Source: an uncultured Pelagibacteraceae bacterium (GTDB lineage Bacteria > Pseudomonadota > Alphaproteobacteria > Pelagibacterales > Pelagibacteraceae). Taken from it: DNA of 64,000 nt. This document shows positions 55,938 through 63,234 of this stretch, piece after piece (the first letter of the stretch is position 1; the number at the start of each line of letters is the position of its first letter). A program made the position numbers and the translations under genes. Location of the stretch: positions 18,519 to 82,518 of the forward strand of contig CACHFM010000005.1 of the NCBI GenBank assembly GCA_902579105.1, given 5' to 3'. Under the pieces are notes generated by a model that was given only the letters and a program-made list of their open reading frames with translations, had not been told where the DNA came from and searched no databases.

Positions 55938-56822
55938 TTATAGTAAAAAATTTACTTTTTTATCTGAAAATTCAATATCAATCTGTTTATGACATCCAAA
56001 ATTGTCCCCATCAATCTGAACGGGAATTTCAAAATTATTACCATCAATATGAATATTTTTTGAGTAAGTAGTGATAACAGATTTGTTTTTCGATAGATCT
56101 CCATAAATAATAATTAAAATTATATAATATATTAGTTTTAATCTTGTTAAATCTTTGAACACGTAAGTTACCAATCTATCATCAAAAATATCTGATTTAT
56201 TTATCTTATGATGACCAGCATAATACTTTGTATTAGATGACAATATCCAATCGGCCTGATGTTTTTGACCGTCAAAGAAAACATTAAGTTTATTATTATT
56301 CATAAATAAAAAATGTTGAAATCCTTTTAAACCAAAAATTATCTTTCCTAGTATTTTTTTTATACGCGTATCAATAGAGTGAACAATTTTAGCATCCCAA
56401 CCAATACCAGCCATTAAAAAAAAATAATTTTCATTTATTTTTATAAGATTAGATTGTTTATAATTATTTGATGTTAAAGCACTGCAAATATCATTTACTT
56501 TTTTGGTTATAGATAACTCTGCTTGAAGTAAATTGGCAGTCCCAGCCGGTATATACCCAATTGCAAAATTTTCATTAAAATCAAAGTCATTTTTGATTAA
56601 TTCATTGATAGCAAATGATACTGATCCATCACCACCAGCAACTATCAATCTATCATAATTTTTATTTTTAAATTCAAGGAATATTTTTTTTGCCTCTTGT
56701 TCAGATTTAGTTTTGAAAAAATCAACAGTATTATTGATCTTTAATTTTTCATAAATTTTATTTACTAATTTTACTTTTTTCCCTGATGATGAATTGAGAT
56801 TATAAATTAAACAATAATGCAT
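55938..56822 (-). CDS. Diacylglycerol kinase-family lipid kinase (YegS/DgkB-like)
   Basis: Predicted to phosphorylate a lipid alcohol such as diacylglycerol, or to act in a related lipid pathway. The 294-residue protein begins MHYCLIYNLNSSSGKK (cf. NPxSG), and has YDRLIVAGGDGSVSFAINEL (GGDGT-type nucleotide motif) near residue 58 and IGYIPAGTANLLQAELSI near residue 89, the conserved PxGTxN motif. GIGWDAKIVHSID follows. It is divergent from the PlcP-like gene, and a Pho-box-like repeat oriented toward it lies about 68 bp upstream of its ATG, suggesting induction at low phosphate. Confidence 0.88.
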   Translation of the reverse strand: MHYCLIYNLNSSSGKKVKLVNKIYEKLKINNTVDFFKTKSEQEAKKIFLEFKNKNYDRLIVAGGDGSVSFAINELIKNDFDFNENFAIGYIPAGTANLLQAELSITKKVNDICSALTSNNYKQSNLIKINENYFFLMAGIGWDAKIVHSIDTRIKKILGKIIFGLKGFQHFLFMNNNKLNVFFDGQKHQADWILSSNTKYYAGHHKINKSDIFDDRLVTYVFKDLTRLKLIYYIILIIIYGDLSKNKSVITTYSKNIHIDGNNFEIPVQIDGDNFGCHKQIDIEFSDKKVNFLL

Positions 56823-56889: not shown

Positions 56890-56907
56890 GTTACAGTTGT
56901 GTTACAA
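56890..56907 (-). promoter_or_regulatory. Pho box between the lipid kinase and plcP
   Basis: On the minus strand TTGTAAC-ACAA-CTGTAAC: two 7-bp direct repeats separated by 4 bp, the layout of a PhoB binding site (CTGTCAT-N4-CTGTCAT in E. coli) and almost identical to the site before pstS. A TATTTC -10-like element about 10 bp downstream on the minus strand would drive the lipid kinase gene. The plcP ATG is only 14 bp away on the other side. Confidence 0.65.
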
Positions 56908-56921
56908 AAAAGGTTTTTTTA

Positions 56922-57728
56922 ATGGCCCCACTATTAAAATATAAGAGTATATTCATATCTGATGTACATCTTGGTACTAAAGGTTGTCAAGCAGGCAAGC
57001 TTCTAGAGTTTTTCAAAAATTCAAGATCTGAAAATCTTTATTTGGTTGGAGACATAATCGATGTTTGGGCTATGCAAAAGAGTTTCTATTGGCCTCAAGA
57101 GCACAATGATGTCATTCAAAAAATATTAAGAAAAGCAAGGCACGGGACAAAAGTATTTTACATTATTGGTAATCATGACGAGGTGTTTAGAAAATTTATC
57201 CCAATGCACTTGGGTGATATTAAAATTGTAAATAGAGTTATTCATGAAACACAGTTAGGAAAAAAATATCTAGTTGTTCATGGTGATGCTTGGGACGGAG
57301 TAATGAAACATGCAAAATGGCTATCTAAATTAGGAGCTATTGCATATGAATTATTACTTAAAATTAATATTATTATAAATTTCTTTAGAAAGTTGAGAGG
57401 TAAAGACTATTGGTCTTTGGCAAAATTTTTAAAATATAAGGTAAAAAATGCTGTCAAATATATAGGTGAATATGAAAACACACTTTCAAAATATGCAAAA
57501 AGAAAAAAATTTGATGGAATAATCTGTGGTCACATCCATCACGCTGAAAATTTAAACCTTGATGGTGTGAATTATTTAAATTGTGGTGATTGGGTTGAGT
57601 CTTGTACAGCATTAACAGAAAAATATGATGGAACTTTTGAGATAATTTATTGGGATAAAAAAAGAAAAGAATATATTTCAGAAAATATTGATAAAGACAA
57701 GTTCACTTCTTTCAAAAAAGCATCCTAA
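56922..57728 (+). CDS. plcP: PlcP-like metallophosphoesterase (phospholipase C for lipid remodelling)
   Basis: Calcineurin-like phosphoesterase of 268 residues, related in sequence to LpxH-type enzymes. Metal motifs are complete: FISDVHLGTKG, NLYLVGDIIDVWAM, YIIGNHDEVFRKFIP, VVHGDAWDGVM and IICGHIHHAENL. Because LpxI already sits in the lipid A operon, and because this gene is followed after 3 bp by a GT4 glycosyltransferase and lies beside phoR and pst, I assign the PlcP role. PlcP is known to remove headgroups from phospholipids under phosphate starvation, giving diacylglycerol for glycolipid synthesis, in SAR11 and rhizobia. LpxH activity is the main alternative. Confidence 0.82.
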   Translation: MAPLLKYKSIFISDVHLGTKGCQAGKLLEFFKNSRSENLYLVGDIIDVWAMQKSFYWPQEHNDVIQKILRKARHGTKVFYIIGNHDEVFRKFIPMHLGDIKIVNRVIHETQLGKKYLVVHGDAWDGVMKHAKWLSKLGAIAYELLLKINIIINFFRKLRGKDYWSLAKFLKYKVKNAVKYIGEYENTLSKYAKRKKFDGIICGHIHHAENLNLDGVNYLNCGDWVESCTALTEKYDGTFEIIYWDKKRKEYISENIDKDKFTSFKKAS

Positions 57729-57731
57729 AAA

Positions 57732-58739
57732 ATGAAAATATTAATAGTTACTGATGCTTATTACCCGCAAGTTAATGGTGTAGTAAGAACTCTCCATCAA
57801 ACAGGTGAAATACTTAAATCACAAGGTCACACTATTGAATATATTACACCTCAACAATTTCTGACTGTACCTATGCCCAAATATAATGAAATTAGATTAT
57901 CTTTAAATGTTTGGCCTCGTGTAAGTAATTTAATCAATTCAATTAAACCTGATGCAATACACATCGCAACAGAAGGGCCTCTTGGTTTTATGGCAAGAAG
58001 ACATTGTATTAAAAAAGGTTTAAAGTTTACAACGAGTTTTCATACAAGATTTGATAAATATATGAAACTTTATATGCCTATCATTCCAGCTAAATGGTCA
58101 GAGAAATTTTTATGCAATTTTCATAATAAAGCTGAAAGAATTTTAGTGACAACAGAATCTATGCGTGAGGAGCTAATTGCATTAGGTGTTGATAATAATA
58201 AAATGGTTACATGGACTAGGGGAGGTAATCATGGTGCGTTTAAAAATCCCATTAAAAGAGACTTACCTTATAAAAGACCTATATGGATATATGTTGGTAG
58301 GATTGCAGTTGAAAAAAATATTAAAGCATTTTTAGATCTCGATCTTGAAGGTACTAAAGTTATTATTGGAAAAGGTCCAGATTTGAACAATTTGAAAAAA
58401 AAATTTCCAAATGATATTTTTTTAGGAGAAAAGACTAATGGAGAATTAGCATCTCATTTTGCATCATCAGACGTTTTTGTTTTTCCTAGTAAAACTGATA
58501 CATTTGGTATTGTTGTTTTGGAATCATTAAATTGTGGTACACCAGTTGCAGCTTATCCAGTGCCAGGACCTAAAGATATATTAGGTGGAACTAATATTGA
58601 TACTTTAGATGATGATTTGAAGGCTTCTGCTTTAAAAGCTTTGAAGGTAAGTCGCCAAGATTGTCTTGATTTTGCAAAAAAATATTCATGGGAAGAAACA
58701 GCAAAAATATTTTTTGAAAATATTTCACCTAATTATTAA
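57732..58739 (+). CDS. agt: GT4 glycosyltransferase, Agt-like (glycosyl-diacylglycerol synthase)
   Basis: Predicted to transfer a sugar to diacylglycerol, making phosphorus-free glycolipids. The 335-residue GT-B protein begins MKILIVTDAYYPQVNGVVRTLHQTGEILKSQGHTIEYI, a start shared with diacylglycerol mannosyl/glucosyltransferases, has IWIYVGRIAVEKNIKAFLDL, and the donor-site motif FPSKTDTFGIVVLESLNCGTPVAAYPVPGPKDIL (E-x7-E region). It directly follows plcP, and this pair is known from Alphaproteobacteria that swap phospholipids for glycolipids. Sugar donor cannot be read from the sequence. Confidence 0.83.
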   Translation: MKILIVTDAYYPQVNGVVRTLHQTGEILKSQGHTIEYITPQQFLTVPMPKYNEIRLSLNVWPRVSNLINSIKPDAIHIATEGPLGFMARRHCIKKGLKFTTSFHTRFDKYMKLYMPIIPAKWSEKFLCNFHNKAERILVTTESMREELIALGVDNNKMVTWTRGGNHGAFKNPIKRDLPYKRPIWIYVGRIAVEKNIKAFLDLDLEGTKVIIGKGPDLNNLKKKFPNDIFLGEKTNGELASHFASSDVFVFPSKTDTFGIVVLESLNCGTPVAAYPVPGPKDILGGTNIDTLDDDLKASALKALKVSRQDCLDFAKKYSWEETAKIFFENISPNY

Positions 58740-58773: not shown

Positions 58774-59922
58774 ATGTTTTGGACAGAGTTGATACTCATA
58801 GTTGTAATAATTATTTTATTATATTTTTTATTTAAAAAAAATATTAAGCCAGAAAATACAGCTCCAGTTGTAAATAAGACCAATAAAGATGATTTAGGAA
58901 AGAGAGTAATTATTGAAGAATTAGAAGATCAATTTTTTGCTTTAGATAAATATAACTTAATCAAATATCTTAACAAAAGTGCAAAACAACGTTTTGGCGA
59001 AAACTTAATTGATAAAAATATTTCAAGTGTAATAAGAGATACAAAATTATTAGAAACAATTGATGAAGCTATTAAGGACCAAACCACAAAAAATGTTAAT
59101 GTAGAAATCAATTTACCATCTTATCAGCTTTACAAAATTTATGTTATTCCTGGTCCTACTCATCTGTTCCCAGAAGTAAACTCAGTTGTATTGTTTCTAA
59201 AAGATTTTACAGAAATAACAAAAGCACAAAAATTAAAAACTGATTTTGTTGCTAATGTGAGTCACGAATTAAGAACACCTTTAGTTTCAATTAAAGGCTC
59301 TTTAGAGACTATTCTTGGACCAGCTTCAAAAGACCAAGAGGCTCAAAAAAAATTTATGTCTATAATGTCTGATCAAGTATTGAGAATGGAAAACTTAATC
59401 AATGATTTATTGATTTTAAGCAGAATTGAGCTTGAAGAACACATTAAACCAAATAAAATCATTAATCTAAATGATATTTTTAAAAATATTAAAAGTAACT
59501 TTGAATTAATTCTTAAAAAAAAGAAAATTAATTTACATCTTGAACTTATTGAACCAACTTTAGTTTTTGGTGATAATGATAAATTGTTAACTGTATTTTC
59601 AAATTTAATTGATAATTCAATTAAATATTCTCAAGGTGGAAAAAATATATATGTCAAAAGTCAAAATAGTGAAGGTAAATTAATTGGTAAAAATATTGTC
59701 ATTAGTATTAAAGATGAAGGGATTGGAATACCTCAACAGTTAATTCCAAGAATAACTGAAAGATTTTTTAGAGTAGATACAGAAAAAAGTAAAAAAGTTG
59801 GTGGCACAGGTTTAGGTTTAGCTATCATGAAACATATTATATCTCAACACAGAGGTGATTACGAGATTCTTAGTAAACTTAATGAAGGTACTGAAATTAA
59901 AATATATCTTCCAACAAAATAA
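58774..59922 (+). CDS. phoR: PhoR-type phosphate sensor histidine kinase
   Basis: Membrane histidine kinase expected to phosphorylate PhoB. The 382-residue protein has one N-terminal helix (WTELILIVVIIILLYFLF), a PAS-like domain (LEDQFFALDKYNLIKYLNKSAKQRF) at about residues 45-150, then H-box FVANVSHELRTPLVSIKGSLETILG, N-box NLIDNSIKYS, and GIGIPQQLIPRITERFFRVDTEKSKKVGGTGLGLAIMKHIISQHRG, whose ERFFRVD...SxxxGGTGLGLAIVKHI pattern is PhoR-like. The context upstream of pstS-pstC-pstA supports the call. phoB is not in this window. Confidence 0.9.
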   Translation: MFWTELILIVVIIILLYFLFKKNIKPENTAPVVNKTNKDDLGKRVIIEELEDQFFALDKYNLIKYLNKSAKQRFGENLIDKNISSVIRDTKLLETIDEAIKDQTTKNVNVEINLPSYQLYKIYVIPGPTHLFPEVNSVVLFLKDFTEITKAQKLKTDFVANVSHELRTPLVSIKGSLETILGPASKDQEAQKKFMSIMSDQVLRMENLINDLLILSRIELEEHIKPNKIINLNDIFKNIKSNFELILKKKKINLHLELIEPTLVFGDNDKLLTVFSNLIDNSIKYSQGGKNIYVKSQNSEGKLIGKNIVISIKDEGIGIPQQLIPRITERFFRVDTEKSKKVGGTGLGLAIMKHIISQHRGDYEILSKLNEGTEIKIYLPTK

Positions 59923-60016: not shown

Positions 60017-60625
60017 ATGATTAAAGTATTGCATAGTATTTTAATTATCTTATTTGTTTTTATGTCGATGATTACTAAAAGTATATCATCGGATATATCT
60101 ACAATTCTAAGGAATCAACAATTAACTGTATTCGATATTGGTGTTTTTAGATTACAAGAAGATTTAAAAAGCACTTATCCTGAAATTAAAAAACATAAAG
60201 ATGTCCCATATGAAGATATTTACATGGATGTTCTCACTTCATATCGAAACAATTCAGTAGATCTAATTATTTCAATTCCTGTAAACGAAAATTTAAAAAA
60301 AGAAAACTACATGTCAGATTCATTTAGATGTAGAAATATATTTAATTCTGTCAGAGATCATTTACTAAGAAATGAAAATATGAGTAATTATAGATTTACT
60401 ATGGCAACAAGTTATTTAACATCTATATTTTCAACTCCAAGTAGTTGGCCCAAATGGCGTTATGATCAAAGTGTTCTTGAGGAATTAGTTAATCTCGTGA
60501 AATTGGAAGTTATTTTAAGGCCTACAACAGAACTTGCTTTTAAGGATAATGTTAATCCAATTTCATGCAAAGGTGGTTTGGAAACCGAAAAAAATGAGAT
60601 TATTATCTCAATGAAATACAACTAA
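60017..60625 (+). CDS. Exported protein of unknown function in the Pho/Pst cluster
   Basis: I do not recognise this 202-residue protein. It starts with a signal peptide (VLHSILIILFVFMSMITKSISS) and appears to be periplasmic, with no other membrane segment. Two cysteines (in SFRCRNIF and NPISCKGG) could form a disulfide. Trp/Pro-rich SSWPKWRYDQS lies near residue 143. The middle and C-terminal parts look alpha/beta, with DLIISIPVNENLKKEN and a final EKNEIIISMKYN strand. It lies between phoR and pstS, 94 bp after phoR, on the same strand. A role in phosphate acquisition is inferred only from position. Confidence 0.78.
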   Translation: MIKVLHSILIILFVFMSMITKSISSDISTILRNQQLTVFDIGVFRLQEDLKSTYPEIKKHKDVPYEDIYMDVLTSYRNNSVDLIISIPVNENLKKENYMSDSFRCRNIFNSVRDHLLRNENMSNYRFTMATSYLTSIFSTPSSWPKWRYDQSVLEELVNLVKLEVILRPTTELAFKDNVNPISCKGGLETEKNEIIISMKYN

Positions 60626-60646
60626 AAAGTTACCTTTTTAATAAAA

Positions 60647-60664
60647 CTGTAACAATTCTGTAAT
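60647..60664 (+). promoter_or_regulatory. Pho box upstream of pstS
   Basis: CTGTAAC-AATT-CTGTAAT: two 7-bp direct repeats with a 4-bp spacer, matching the PhoB operator architecture in the orientation of pstS. The site should replace the -35 element; TTCAAT or CAATAA about 9-11 bp downstream may be the -10. It lies 66 bp before the chosen pstS start. Confidence 0.75.
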
Positions 60665-60730
60665 ATTAAAGATTCAATAAATTTATACGAGTCTGAAATC
60701 TATTAATTAATAATGAAAGGATTAAAGATA

Positions 60731-61762
60731 ATGAAAAAACTAACTATAATAATTGCTTCGCTTGTTGCTTTAACAATTGCGACAGTTGCTCAAGCAAGAG
60801 ATCAAATTAAAATAGTTGGTTCATCTACAGTATTCCCTTACGCGACTGTTGTTGCTGAAAGATTCGGTGGTTCAGGATTTAAAACTCCTGTAATCGAATC
60901 GACTGGTACTGGTGGAGGAGCTAAACTATTCTGCGCTGGTGTTGGTGAACAACATCCAGATATTACAAATGCATCAAGAGCCATGAAAGATAAAGAAAAA
61001 GCTCTATGTAAAAAAAATGGAGTTAATGAAATCGTTGAGATCGTTATTGGTAATGACGGTATTACATTAGCTTATAGTAAAGATGCAAAACCAATTAACT
61101 TTACTAAAGAGCAATTATATTTAGCATTAGCTGCACATACAGTTGTTGATGGTAAATTAGTTCCAAATATTTATAAAACTTGGGACCAAATTGATCCAAG
61201 TCTACCTAAACAGAAAATTTCTGTAATGATCCCTCCAGGAACTTCTGGAACAAGAGATGCTTGGAATTCTTTGGTAATGAAAAAAGGTATGACTAAAGAA
61301 GCTAAAGCTCTTTATAAAGCTGGTTATGAGGCTGGAAATAAAAAATACAAAAAACCTCAAAAACTTTATAGAGAAGATGGTGCTGCTATTGAAGTTGGTG
61401 AAAACGATAGTTTAATCATTCAAAAATTAGTACAAGATAAAGACATGTTTGGTTTCTTTGGATTTAGTTATTTCTTAGCTGCTAAAGACAAATTGCAAGC
61501 TGCTAGCATTGATGGTGGTCAACCATCTCTTGAGAGTATTCAAGACTACAGTTATGCAGTTGCAAGACCATTATTTTTCTATGTGAAAAAAGCTCACGTT
61601 GGTGTAATCCCTGGATTACATGAATTTGTAAAAGAGTTCACTACAACTAAAGCTATAGGTAAAAATGGCTATTTGGCTGATATTGGTTTAGTACCATTAG
61701 ATAAGAAGTTGTACAAGACAACTAGAACTAATGCGAAAGATCTTGTTGCAATGGCTGACTAA
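60731..61762 (+). CDS. pstS: Phosphate ABC transporter, substrate-binding protein
   Basis: High-affinity periplasmic phosphate-binding protein. I choose the ATG at 60731 (343 residues, MKKLTIIIASLVALTIATVAQARD), which follows an AAAGGA ribosome-binding site and gives a normal signal peptide; the ATG at 60713 has no such site. Phosphate-binding loops are visible in IVGSSTVFPYATVVAERFG, IESTGTGGGAKLFCAGVGEQHPDITNASRAM and PPGTSGTRDAWNSLV. It is followed by a terminator and then pstC, so it is likely made in excess of the permeases. Base composition is closer to aapJ than to its neighbours, suggesting high expression. Confidence 0.95.
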   Translation: MKKLTIIIASLVALTIATVAQARDQIKIVGSSTVFPYATVVAERFGGSGFKTPVIESTGTGGGAKLFCAGVGEQHPDITNASRAMKDKEKALCKKNGVNEIVEIVIGNDGITLAYSKDAKPINFTKEQLYLALAAHTVVDGKLVPNIYKTWDQIDPSLPKQKISVMIPPGTSGTRDAWNSLVMKKGMTKEAKALYKAGYEAGNKKYKKPQKLYREDGAAIEVGENDSLIIQKLVQDKDMFGFFGFSYFLAAKDKLQAASIDGGQPSLESIQDYSYAVARPLFFYVKKAHVGVIPGLHEFVKEFTTTKAIGKNGYLADIGLVPLDKKLYKTTRTNAKDLVAMAD

Positions 61763-61786: not shown

Positions 61787-61815
61787 AAGGGGTCTTTTTA
61801 GGCCCCTTTTTTTTT
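61787..61815 (+). terminator. Rho-independent terminator between pstS and pstC
   Basis: AAGGGGTC (61787-61794), loop TTTTTA, GGCCCCTT (61801-61808), with nine T in the tail (61807-61815). It is 24 bp after the pstS stop and before the pstC ribosome-binding site AGGAG, giving partial termination within the operon, as at aapJ. Confidence 0.9.
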
Positions 61816-61848: not shown

Positions 61849-63234
61849 TTGAACTTAGTTATATTCATCTTTATTGTACTTCTTGGTTTTACTAGTTACT
61901 ATTTTGGAAGAAAAAAAGCCTACTCAATTCAAGCAACAAATACTAGATTAACAGCACTTCCACAATTTTATGGGTATTATTTAGCAATATGGTGCGCAAT
62001 ACCCGCTTTTATTATTTATTCTTTATGGGCAATATTTGAGCCGAGTATAGTTAAGTTAATAATTTTAAGTGATTATAGCAATCAAGGATATCTTGATGAC
62101 GAACTAAATCTAATTTATGAAAAAACTAAATCATTATCTCGTGGTCAGTTTAGTGGAGAAATTACTACTTATCTTGAAACATCTGCAGAAAAATATTTAA
62201 ATCTTCGATCTATAGCTCAAAACTCTAAAGTTGTTTTAATTTTGGCAATAATTATAGCTTCTATAGTTTATGGTTATAAAAGAATTTCTTCAAACAACAG
62301 AACAAGAGAACCGGTTGAAAAATTTTTAAATGCTGTTTTATTTACAGCTTCTTTGGCAGCTATATTAACAACTATTGGAATTGTTTTTTCATTAATATTT
62401 CAAACTATCGATTTTTTTAAAGTAATTCCCTTGTTTGATTTTATTTTTGGAACTCATTGGTATCCAGCTAAAGCATTTGTGAGAGATGCTTCTGAGCCTT
62501 TGGATCCATCAATGTATTCTGATACATTTGGGGCTGTACCAATTTTTGCCGGAACATTTTTTATAGCATTAATTGCAATGTGTGTTGCTATACCAATTGG
62601 ATTGATGAGTGGAATTTATTTAGCTGAATACGCTTCAACCAAAGTAAGACAATATGCAAAACCTTTAATTGAAATTTTAGCAGGCATACCAACTGTAGTT
62701 TATGGTTTTTTTGCAGCTTTAACAGTTGGACCATTCCTTAAAGATATAGGAACGGCAATGGGATTAGAAGTATCTGCAGAGAGTGCTCTAGCTGCAGGGG
62801 GTGTAATGGGGATAATGATTATTCCGTTTATATCTAGTTTGAGTGATGACGTTATTACTAGTGTTCCTCAAAGTTTAAGAGATGGTAGTTATGCAATGGG
62901 GGCTACTAAATCAGAAACAATAAAAAAAGTTATTTTTCCAGCAGCATTACCAGGAATTGTTGGTTCTATCTTGCTAGGTGTTTCCAGAGCTGTTGGAGAA
63001 ACAATGATTGTAGTTATGGCTTCAGGCCTTGCAGCCAACTTAACATTTAACCCTTTAGAATCTACTTCAACTATCACTGCTCAAATTGTCGTAATATTAA
63101 TTGGAGATCAGGCCTTTGGAGATCCTAAAACCCAGGCAGCATTTGCACTAGGTATGACATTGTTTTTGGTAACACTTAGTTTAAATATTTTTGCATTAAG
63201 AGTTGTTAAAAAATATAGGGAAAAATATGAATAA
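61849..63234 (+). CDS. pstC: Phosphate ABC transporter permease PstC
   Basis: Inner-membrane permease of the Pst system. The 461-residue protein has TTG as start, 5 nt after AGGAG. It has the long N-terminal extension usual in alphaproteobacterial PstC: a helix at about residues 2-17, another near 35-60, and a periplasmic loop. The ABC permease core then starts near residue 230 (AVPIFAGTFFIALIAMCVAIPIGLMSGIYLAEYAS), followed by PLIEILAGIPTVVYGFFAALTVGPFL and the EAA loop VPQSLRDGSYAMGATKSETIKKVIFPAALPGIVGSILLGVSRAVGETMIV. It overlaps pstA by 8 bp. Confidence 0.94.
   Translation: MNLVIFIFIVLLGFTSYYFGRKKAYSIQATNTRLTALPQFYGYYLAIWCAIPAFIIYSLWAIFEPSIVKLIILSDYSNQGYLDDELNLIYEKTKSLSRGQFSGEITTYLETSAEKYLNLRSIAQNSKVVLILAIIIASIVYGYKRISSNNRTREPVEKFLNAVLFTASLAAILTTIGIVFSLIFQTIDFFKVIPLFDFIFGTHWYPAKAFVRDASEPLDPSMYSDTFGAVPIFAGTFFIALIAMCVAIPIGLMSGIYLAEYASTKVRQYAKPLIEILAGIPTVVYGFFAALTVGPFLKDIGTAMGLEVSAESALAAGGVMGIMIIPFISSLSDDVITSVPQSLRDGSYAMGATKSETIKKVIFPAALPGIVGSILLGVSRAVGETMIVVMASGLAANLTFNPLESTSTITAQIVVILIGDQAFGDPKTQAAFALGMTLFLVTLSLNIFALRVVKKYREKYE

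Follow-up and report, generated by a model that had tools for sequence, protein, structure and literature searches.

The window, a stretch of 64,000 nucleotides from a member of the Pelagibacteraceae (SAR11) with a 1.2-Mb genome, contains a phosphate block in which an ATG-initiated open reading frame of 202 codons is found between phoR and pstS (Table 1). The earlier note had placed it there, on the same strand as both neighbours, and the reading frame is present as described, separated from phoR by 94 bp and from pstS by 87 bp. The true start of pstS is probably its second ATG, at 60731. The encoded protein shares 97-100% identity with proteins from many Pelagibacteraceae records, and a search of the window against Rfam returned tRNAs only.

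Table 1 Features at the locus, in positions of the window.
Feature	Position	Strand	Evidence
Diacylglycerol kinase-like gene, divergent from plcP	55938..56822	-	DAGK_cat
Pho box, 1 mismatch, 15 bp before plcP	56890..56907	-	Consensus match; head of the plcP-agt-phoR-gene unit
plcP-type metallophosphoesterase (phospholipid remodelling)	56922..57728	+	Metallophos; HTCC7211 homologue at orthologous locus L075; role from the available text of PMC4796936
agt-type glycolipid glycosyltransferase	57732..58739	+	GT4 families; role from the available text of PMC4796936
phoR histidine kinase, one N-terminal transmembrane stretch	58774..59922	+	HisKA and HATPase_c
The gene: exported protein of an undescribed alphaproteobacterial family, 202 aa	60017..60625	+	Open reading frame, homologues, selection
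Predicted Sec signal peptide, codons 1-25	60017..60091	+	Hydrophobic stretch, residues 1-27; form conserved among relatives
Cys105 codon, invariant; long helix of the model	60329..60331	+	Alignments, AlphaFold2 model
Cys184 codon, invariant; C-terminal strand of the model	60566..60568	+	Alignments, AlphaFold2 model
Pho box array before pstS, TTTTAAT-AAAA-CTGTAAC-AATT-CTGTAAT	60636..60664	+	Exact match at 60647-60664
pstS phosphate-binding protein, lineage accompanying the gene	60713..61762	+	PBP_like_2; PstS tree
pstC	61849..63234	+	DUF3708 and BPD_transp_1
pstA, truncated by the window/contig end	63203..64000	+	

Probable transcription units at the locus

Pho boxes were scored against the consensus CTGTMAY-N4-CTGTMAY. 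A box precedes pstS with zero to two mismatches in 198 of 202 loci and plcP with one or two mismatches in 89 of 94; these loci are redundant, and unique sequences give the same picture. No box of its own was found before the gene in SAR11, where the best match usually has four mismatches, as in random windows. Since conserved boxes stand before plcP and pstS but not before the gene, it does not appear, in transcriptional terms, to belong to the Pst operon. The gaps along plcP, agt, phoR and the gene measure 3, 34 and 94 bp, phoR and the gene share 17 nt at the end of phoR in genera g7, g9 and g12, and no terminator-like site was found on the forward strand before 61787. The simplest reading of these sequences would be one transcript running from plcP through agt and phoR to the gene, and after it a second unit, pst, under Pho control of its own.

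A strong terminator-like hairpin with a T run (61787-61808) is located between pstS and pstC, which fits high expression of PstS relative to the permease. The literature covered by our search, which did not include the starvation study of Carini et al. 2015, yielded no expression data for the gene and no interaction or binding data for its product.

The protein, its family and its predicted fold

The N-terminus, MIKVLHSILIILFVFMSMITKSISS followed by D, resembles a Sec/SPI signal peptide: a single hydrophobic stretch (residues 1-27) with small residues at -3 and -1, a form conserved in relatives, with cleavage expected near the junction of SISS and D. Neither a lipobox nor a later transmembrane stretch was found in the gene product. 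The mature part contains exactly two cysteines, C105 and C184, which are invariant in 24 SAR11 relatives and also in a 46-row family alignment, and which probably form a disulfide. The signal-peptide-like N-terminus and the two cysteines to which the earlier note had drawn attention were both confirmed.

Ratios of dN/dS fall between 0.07 and 0.14 in seven of eight comparisons, the eighth, 0.32, resting on a dS of 0.04. Together with open-frame homologues in 78 of 197 genomes and a confident AlphaFold2 model, these values indicate that the gene is real, not a chance open reading frame, and is under purifying selection.

Searches of the gene product against Pfam, NCBIfam and the PDB sequences gave no credible match, so that the absence of a nameable family, claimed beforehand, holds for these libraries. 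Weak hits to Sas10_Utp3, LlsX, herpes glycoprotein B and SRP68 were discarded as chance or coil-like matches. We therefore describe the family by its own features, as tested on the 24 SAR11 rows and 46 family rows: the signal region, an L-x-D-x-G motif, the pair of invariant cysteines and, close to the C-terminus, LEV and C-x-G-x-L, all of which the gene product possesses. Residues invariant across the family are L, G, the two C, F, L and L, with D and Y nearly so; they form no catalytic set, and their mostly hydrophobic or glycine character argues against an enzyme. The invariant cysteines, the L-x-D-x-G motif and the confident model provide a definition for an alphaproteobacterial family that has no Pfam entry.

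AlphaFold2 gave a pLDDT of 86 with the 24-row alignment, and for the mature chain with 46 rows a pLDDT of 92.6 and a pTM of 0.88. The latter model is a compact alpha/beta domain with helices at residues 2-7, 13-26, 70-91 (the long helix), 101-112 and 146-152 of the mature chain, and strands at 44-50, 55-64, 136-144, 157-162 and 171-174. No Foldseek hit in the PDB had an E value lower than 0.19, TM-scores among the matches listed did not exceed 0.37, and a viral fold search found no usable match for the model. The structure prediction suggested in the earlier note as a check yields a confident domain for which the PDB fold search gave no good match.

The better Foldseek matches included three independent entries (PDB 3n2q, 2qx2, 3ib5) for CamS, the staph-cAM373 pheromone precursor lipoproteins, which are exported like the gene product. 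We rejected this fold, as the TM-scores (0.32-0.34, E 0.2-0.9) stay below the usual mark of 0.5 and there is no sequence match; moreover, the lipobox cysteine of CamS is missing from the gene product, whose signal region has no cysteine. Likewise, Pfam does not place the gene product in the phosphate-binding PstS family (PF12849): PBP_like_2 proteins adopt a two-lobed fold of about 300 aa, whereas the mature gene product is a single domain of 177 aa with a different order of secondary structure. Neither Pfam nor NCBIfam detects a phosphatase domain that would make it a periplasmic phosphatase.

Genomic position, relatives and recombination

A protein search of whole genomes found homologues in 32 of 101 genomes of the genus and in 79 of 197 sampled genomes of the family, or 78 (about 40%) once a match in G108 (E 5e-4), with nothing credible at that place, was discarded. 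In 76 of these 78 the gene immediately precedes pstS, both on one strand, with a gap of 90-129 bp and nearly always after phoR, the usual order being DAGK(-), plcP, agt, phoR, gene, pstS, pstC, pstA, pstB, phoU, phoB, SixA(-). In G109 the place before pstS is kept although phoR sits at the opposite end of the operon. The two exceptions are G123, which retains plcP-agt-phoR-gene with pstS 15.5 kb away, and G148, where the gene lies 24 kb from pstS. Within Pelagibacteraceae the position is thus conserved far beyond chance.

All 78 gene-bearing genomes encode PstS, and 73 each encode PlcP and Agt, while 40 genomes have PstS but not the gene. The distinction follows the PstS lineage: wherever PstS is at least 73% identical to that of the window the gene is present (71 of 71 genomes), whereas the second Pst lineage of SAR11, whose PstS reaches about 65% identity, goes without it, even inside the same genus. 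This second lineage (e.g. G103, G117 and G012) has likewise phoR-pstSCAB-phoU-phoB, but phoR directly precedes pstS, and the family profile at full sensitivity found no homologue between them. On the PstS tree, which is a quick tree with many open forks, gene presence needs three changes against a shuffled-label mean of 13.3; two of the tips scored as absent are G123 and G148, which carry the gene elsewhere. Six genomes combine plcP and pst without the gene, and G109 (single contig, about 100% complete) combines the gene and pst with no match to plcP or agt, suggesting that the gene follows Pst more than lipid remodelling.

The two Pst/PhoR lineages (L092-L111 and L059-L090) occur within one SAR11 genus, with PhoR about 44-52% identical. 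Four genomes (G124, G189, G193 and G248) have plcP and agt near pstS of the other lineage and no gene, a Pho island of mixed origin.

Recombination has reshaped the locus. In HTCC7211 (locus L075) two ancestries meet, one seen in pstSCAB and the mature part of the protein, the other in phoR and phoU-phoB. Between L080 and L083 a divergent cassette of about 1.4 kb (-750 to +620 around the gene; 67-80% identity) comprises the 3' half of phoR and the gene, while the flanking plcP-agt and pst are mostly 92-99% identical, which links the gene to phoR as much as to pst. With breakpoints at and in it, the gene marks a junction of recombination and has moved now with one neighbour, now with the other. 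Mirror-tree correlations (r 0.93-0.97 with every neighbour) do not separate phoR from pst as partner.

Profile searches extended the family to eight genomes of a sister SAR11 family (f2), to a few of 385 Alphaproteobacteria and, in the family to which G612 belongs and which is probably Azospirillaceae, to 32 of 82 genomes. Outside Alphaproteobacteria, one weak match was obtained among 299 genomes sampled across the phylum; viral contigs and phage records contained no relative, giving no sign of a phage-borne gene. The f2 relative follows atuA and overlaps a LivF-like ABC ATPase gene, in an operon (L214:3985-11321) that also encodes an AMP-binding ligase and Peripla_BP_6 proteins. The Azospirillaceae-like relatives are free-standing, several times beside an alpha/beta hydrolase gene, and most relatives outside Pelagibacteraceae, these and other Alphaproteobacteria included, are away from pst, indicating that the fold is not phosphate-specific. 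The association with phoR and pstS anticipated in the earlier note consequently stands within Pelagibacteraceae (76 of 78) and fails beyond them, where homologues lie mostly away from Pho genes, the outcome that the same note had named as evidence against its reading.

In six Azospirillaceae-like genomes a Pho-box-like site precedes the free-standing relative. We did not accept this as independent Pho control: the first half of the box falls on the Leu and stop codons of the preceding hydrolase gene, and the six genomes are closely related, which leaves the site as no more than a hint. One alphaproteobacterium with a 4.2-Mb genome (G460) carries two adjacent, diverged copies of the family (L225:6212-7332).

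Possible roles

The explanation that we favour, tentatively, is that the protein is soluble and periplasmic and assists one of the two SAR11 Pst/PhoR lineages in phosphate capture or sensing, and we infer the following mechanism for it. The gene would be expressed under phosphate shortage as the last gene of the transcript headed by the Pho box before plcP, and its product would be exported by Sec and fold with a C105-C184 disulfide. Instead of catalysing a reaction it would bind a partner, with PstS or the periplasmic sides of PstC/PstA as the likeliest candidates, and this binding would tune phosphate capture or the signal from Pst to PhoR; in other Alphaproteobacteria the same fold may serve other partners. 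Judged from the genome comparisons, the gene product is probably a missing part of how SAR11 copes with phosphate scarcity.

This explanation is based on adjacency to pstS (76 of 78), on the presence of PstS in all 78 genomes and of the gene in all 71 with the closer PstS (at least 73% identical), on G109, where the place before pstS survives the displacement of phoR, on the shared ancestry of the mature part and pstSCAB in HTCC7211, and on the f2 relative, which also shares an operon with an ABC-importer ATPase and a binding protein. Against it count the location upstream of the pstS Pho box and apparent cotranscription with phoR, the phoR-gene pair kept without adjacent pstS in G123, the L080/L083 cassette, the other Pst lineage, which does without the gene, and the outside relatives, most of which are not near pst. 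The phosphate job that the earlier note had deduced from position is hence supported by the fixed place and the coupling to one Pst lineage, and weakened by the outside relatives, the lack of an own Pho box and the other lineage.

No periplasmic domain is evident in PhoR, and its single transmembrane stretch argues against the gene product touching a sensor domain of PhoR directly. In E. coli, the model case, PhoR receives its signal by way of Pst and PhoU. A bolder reading, a previously unknown periplasmic regulator with a fold not in the PDB through which PhoR signalling would be coupled to the loading of one PstS lineage, appears improbable to us; if true, it would add a component to bacterial phosphate sensing and distinguish two SAR11 phosphate-uptake ecotypes. 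SAR11 bacteria rank with the most abundant cells of the ocean, and many of their habitats are phosphate-limited. If an undescribed exported protein strictly accompanies one of their two Pst lineages, it would point to a functional division in phosphate uptake.

Alternatively, the protein could be a general alphaproteobacterial periplasmic or envelope protein with no phosphate role that borrows the promoter of a recombining Pho island. The Azospirillaceae-like and other relatives away from pst, the AtuA/ligase operon of f2 and the breakpoints at and in the gene all suit such a protein, but we regard it as unlikely, given the strict coupling to one PstS lineage across several genera, the persistence of the gene next to pstS in 76 of 78 streamlined genomes and the Pho-box-like site of the six Azospirillaceae-like genomes, half of which coincides with the preceding stop codon.

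Slightly less probable is an envelope factor of the phosphorus-saving membrane remodelling by PlcP and Agt, one that moves, senses or stabilises glycolipid-rich membranes. Co-occurrence with plcP and agt in 73 of 78 genomes, the usual plcP-agt-phoR-gene order behind a Pho box, and G123 and G148, which keep the gene and plcP-agt although the gene lies apart from pstS, would be expected of it; G109 has the gene with no plcP/agt match, however, four genomes with plcP and agt close upstream of the other-lineage pstS lack the gene, as does G287, and no lipid-binding family or fold was recognised. Least probable, and very unlikely in our judgement, is a periplasmic organophosphate enzyme or binding protein feeding PstS: predicted export, the neighbouring genes and the enlarged cavity of the same-lineage HTCC7211 PstS, for which the available text of PMC12421899 reports tests with organophosphates, speak for it, but there is no phosphatase or binding-protein match, the few invariant polar residues resemble no metal or phosphate site, and the mature domain of 177 aa is below typical binding-protein size.

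As HTCC7211 is cultured and carries a homologue, the role can be tested. Its Pho/Pst locus with plcP-agt (PMC4796936, PMC12421899) has the same genes in the same order, with a homologue of 205 aa in the same place (L075:6485-7102, - strand); we identified genome G135 as this strain by the ORF lengths of pstS (PstS of 344 aa), pstC and pstB, and of pstA with a later ATG. The available parts of these papers characterise its PlcP (PB7211_983) and Agt (PB7211_960; PMC4796936) and its CpPstS, which binds phosphate with a Kd of 112 nM, has an expanded cavity and forms a distinct PstS branch (PMC12421899). The available part of PMC12636525 describes pstSCAB-phoU-phoB-phoR as core in coastal Pelagibacteraceae and as present in 55% of offshore genomes; the gene is neither named nor discussed in these portions of the three papers. 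The HIMB59 phosphate islands (PMC10734472) are comparable Pho islands, mobile and alphaproteobacterial, which besides pst, phoR-phoB, LpxH-like and glycosyltransferase genes also encode unnamed hypothetical proteins. Unlike in the window, agt and phoR of HTCC7211 are separated by a GNAT (Acetyltransf_5) and acyltransferase pair on the opposite strand (L075:8417-9981), which resembles an ornithine-lipid pair; a similar pair is found in G123 (L067).
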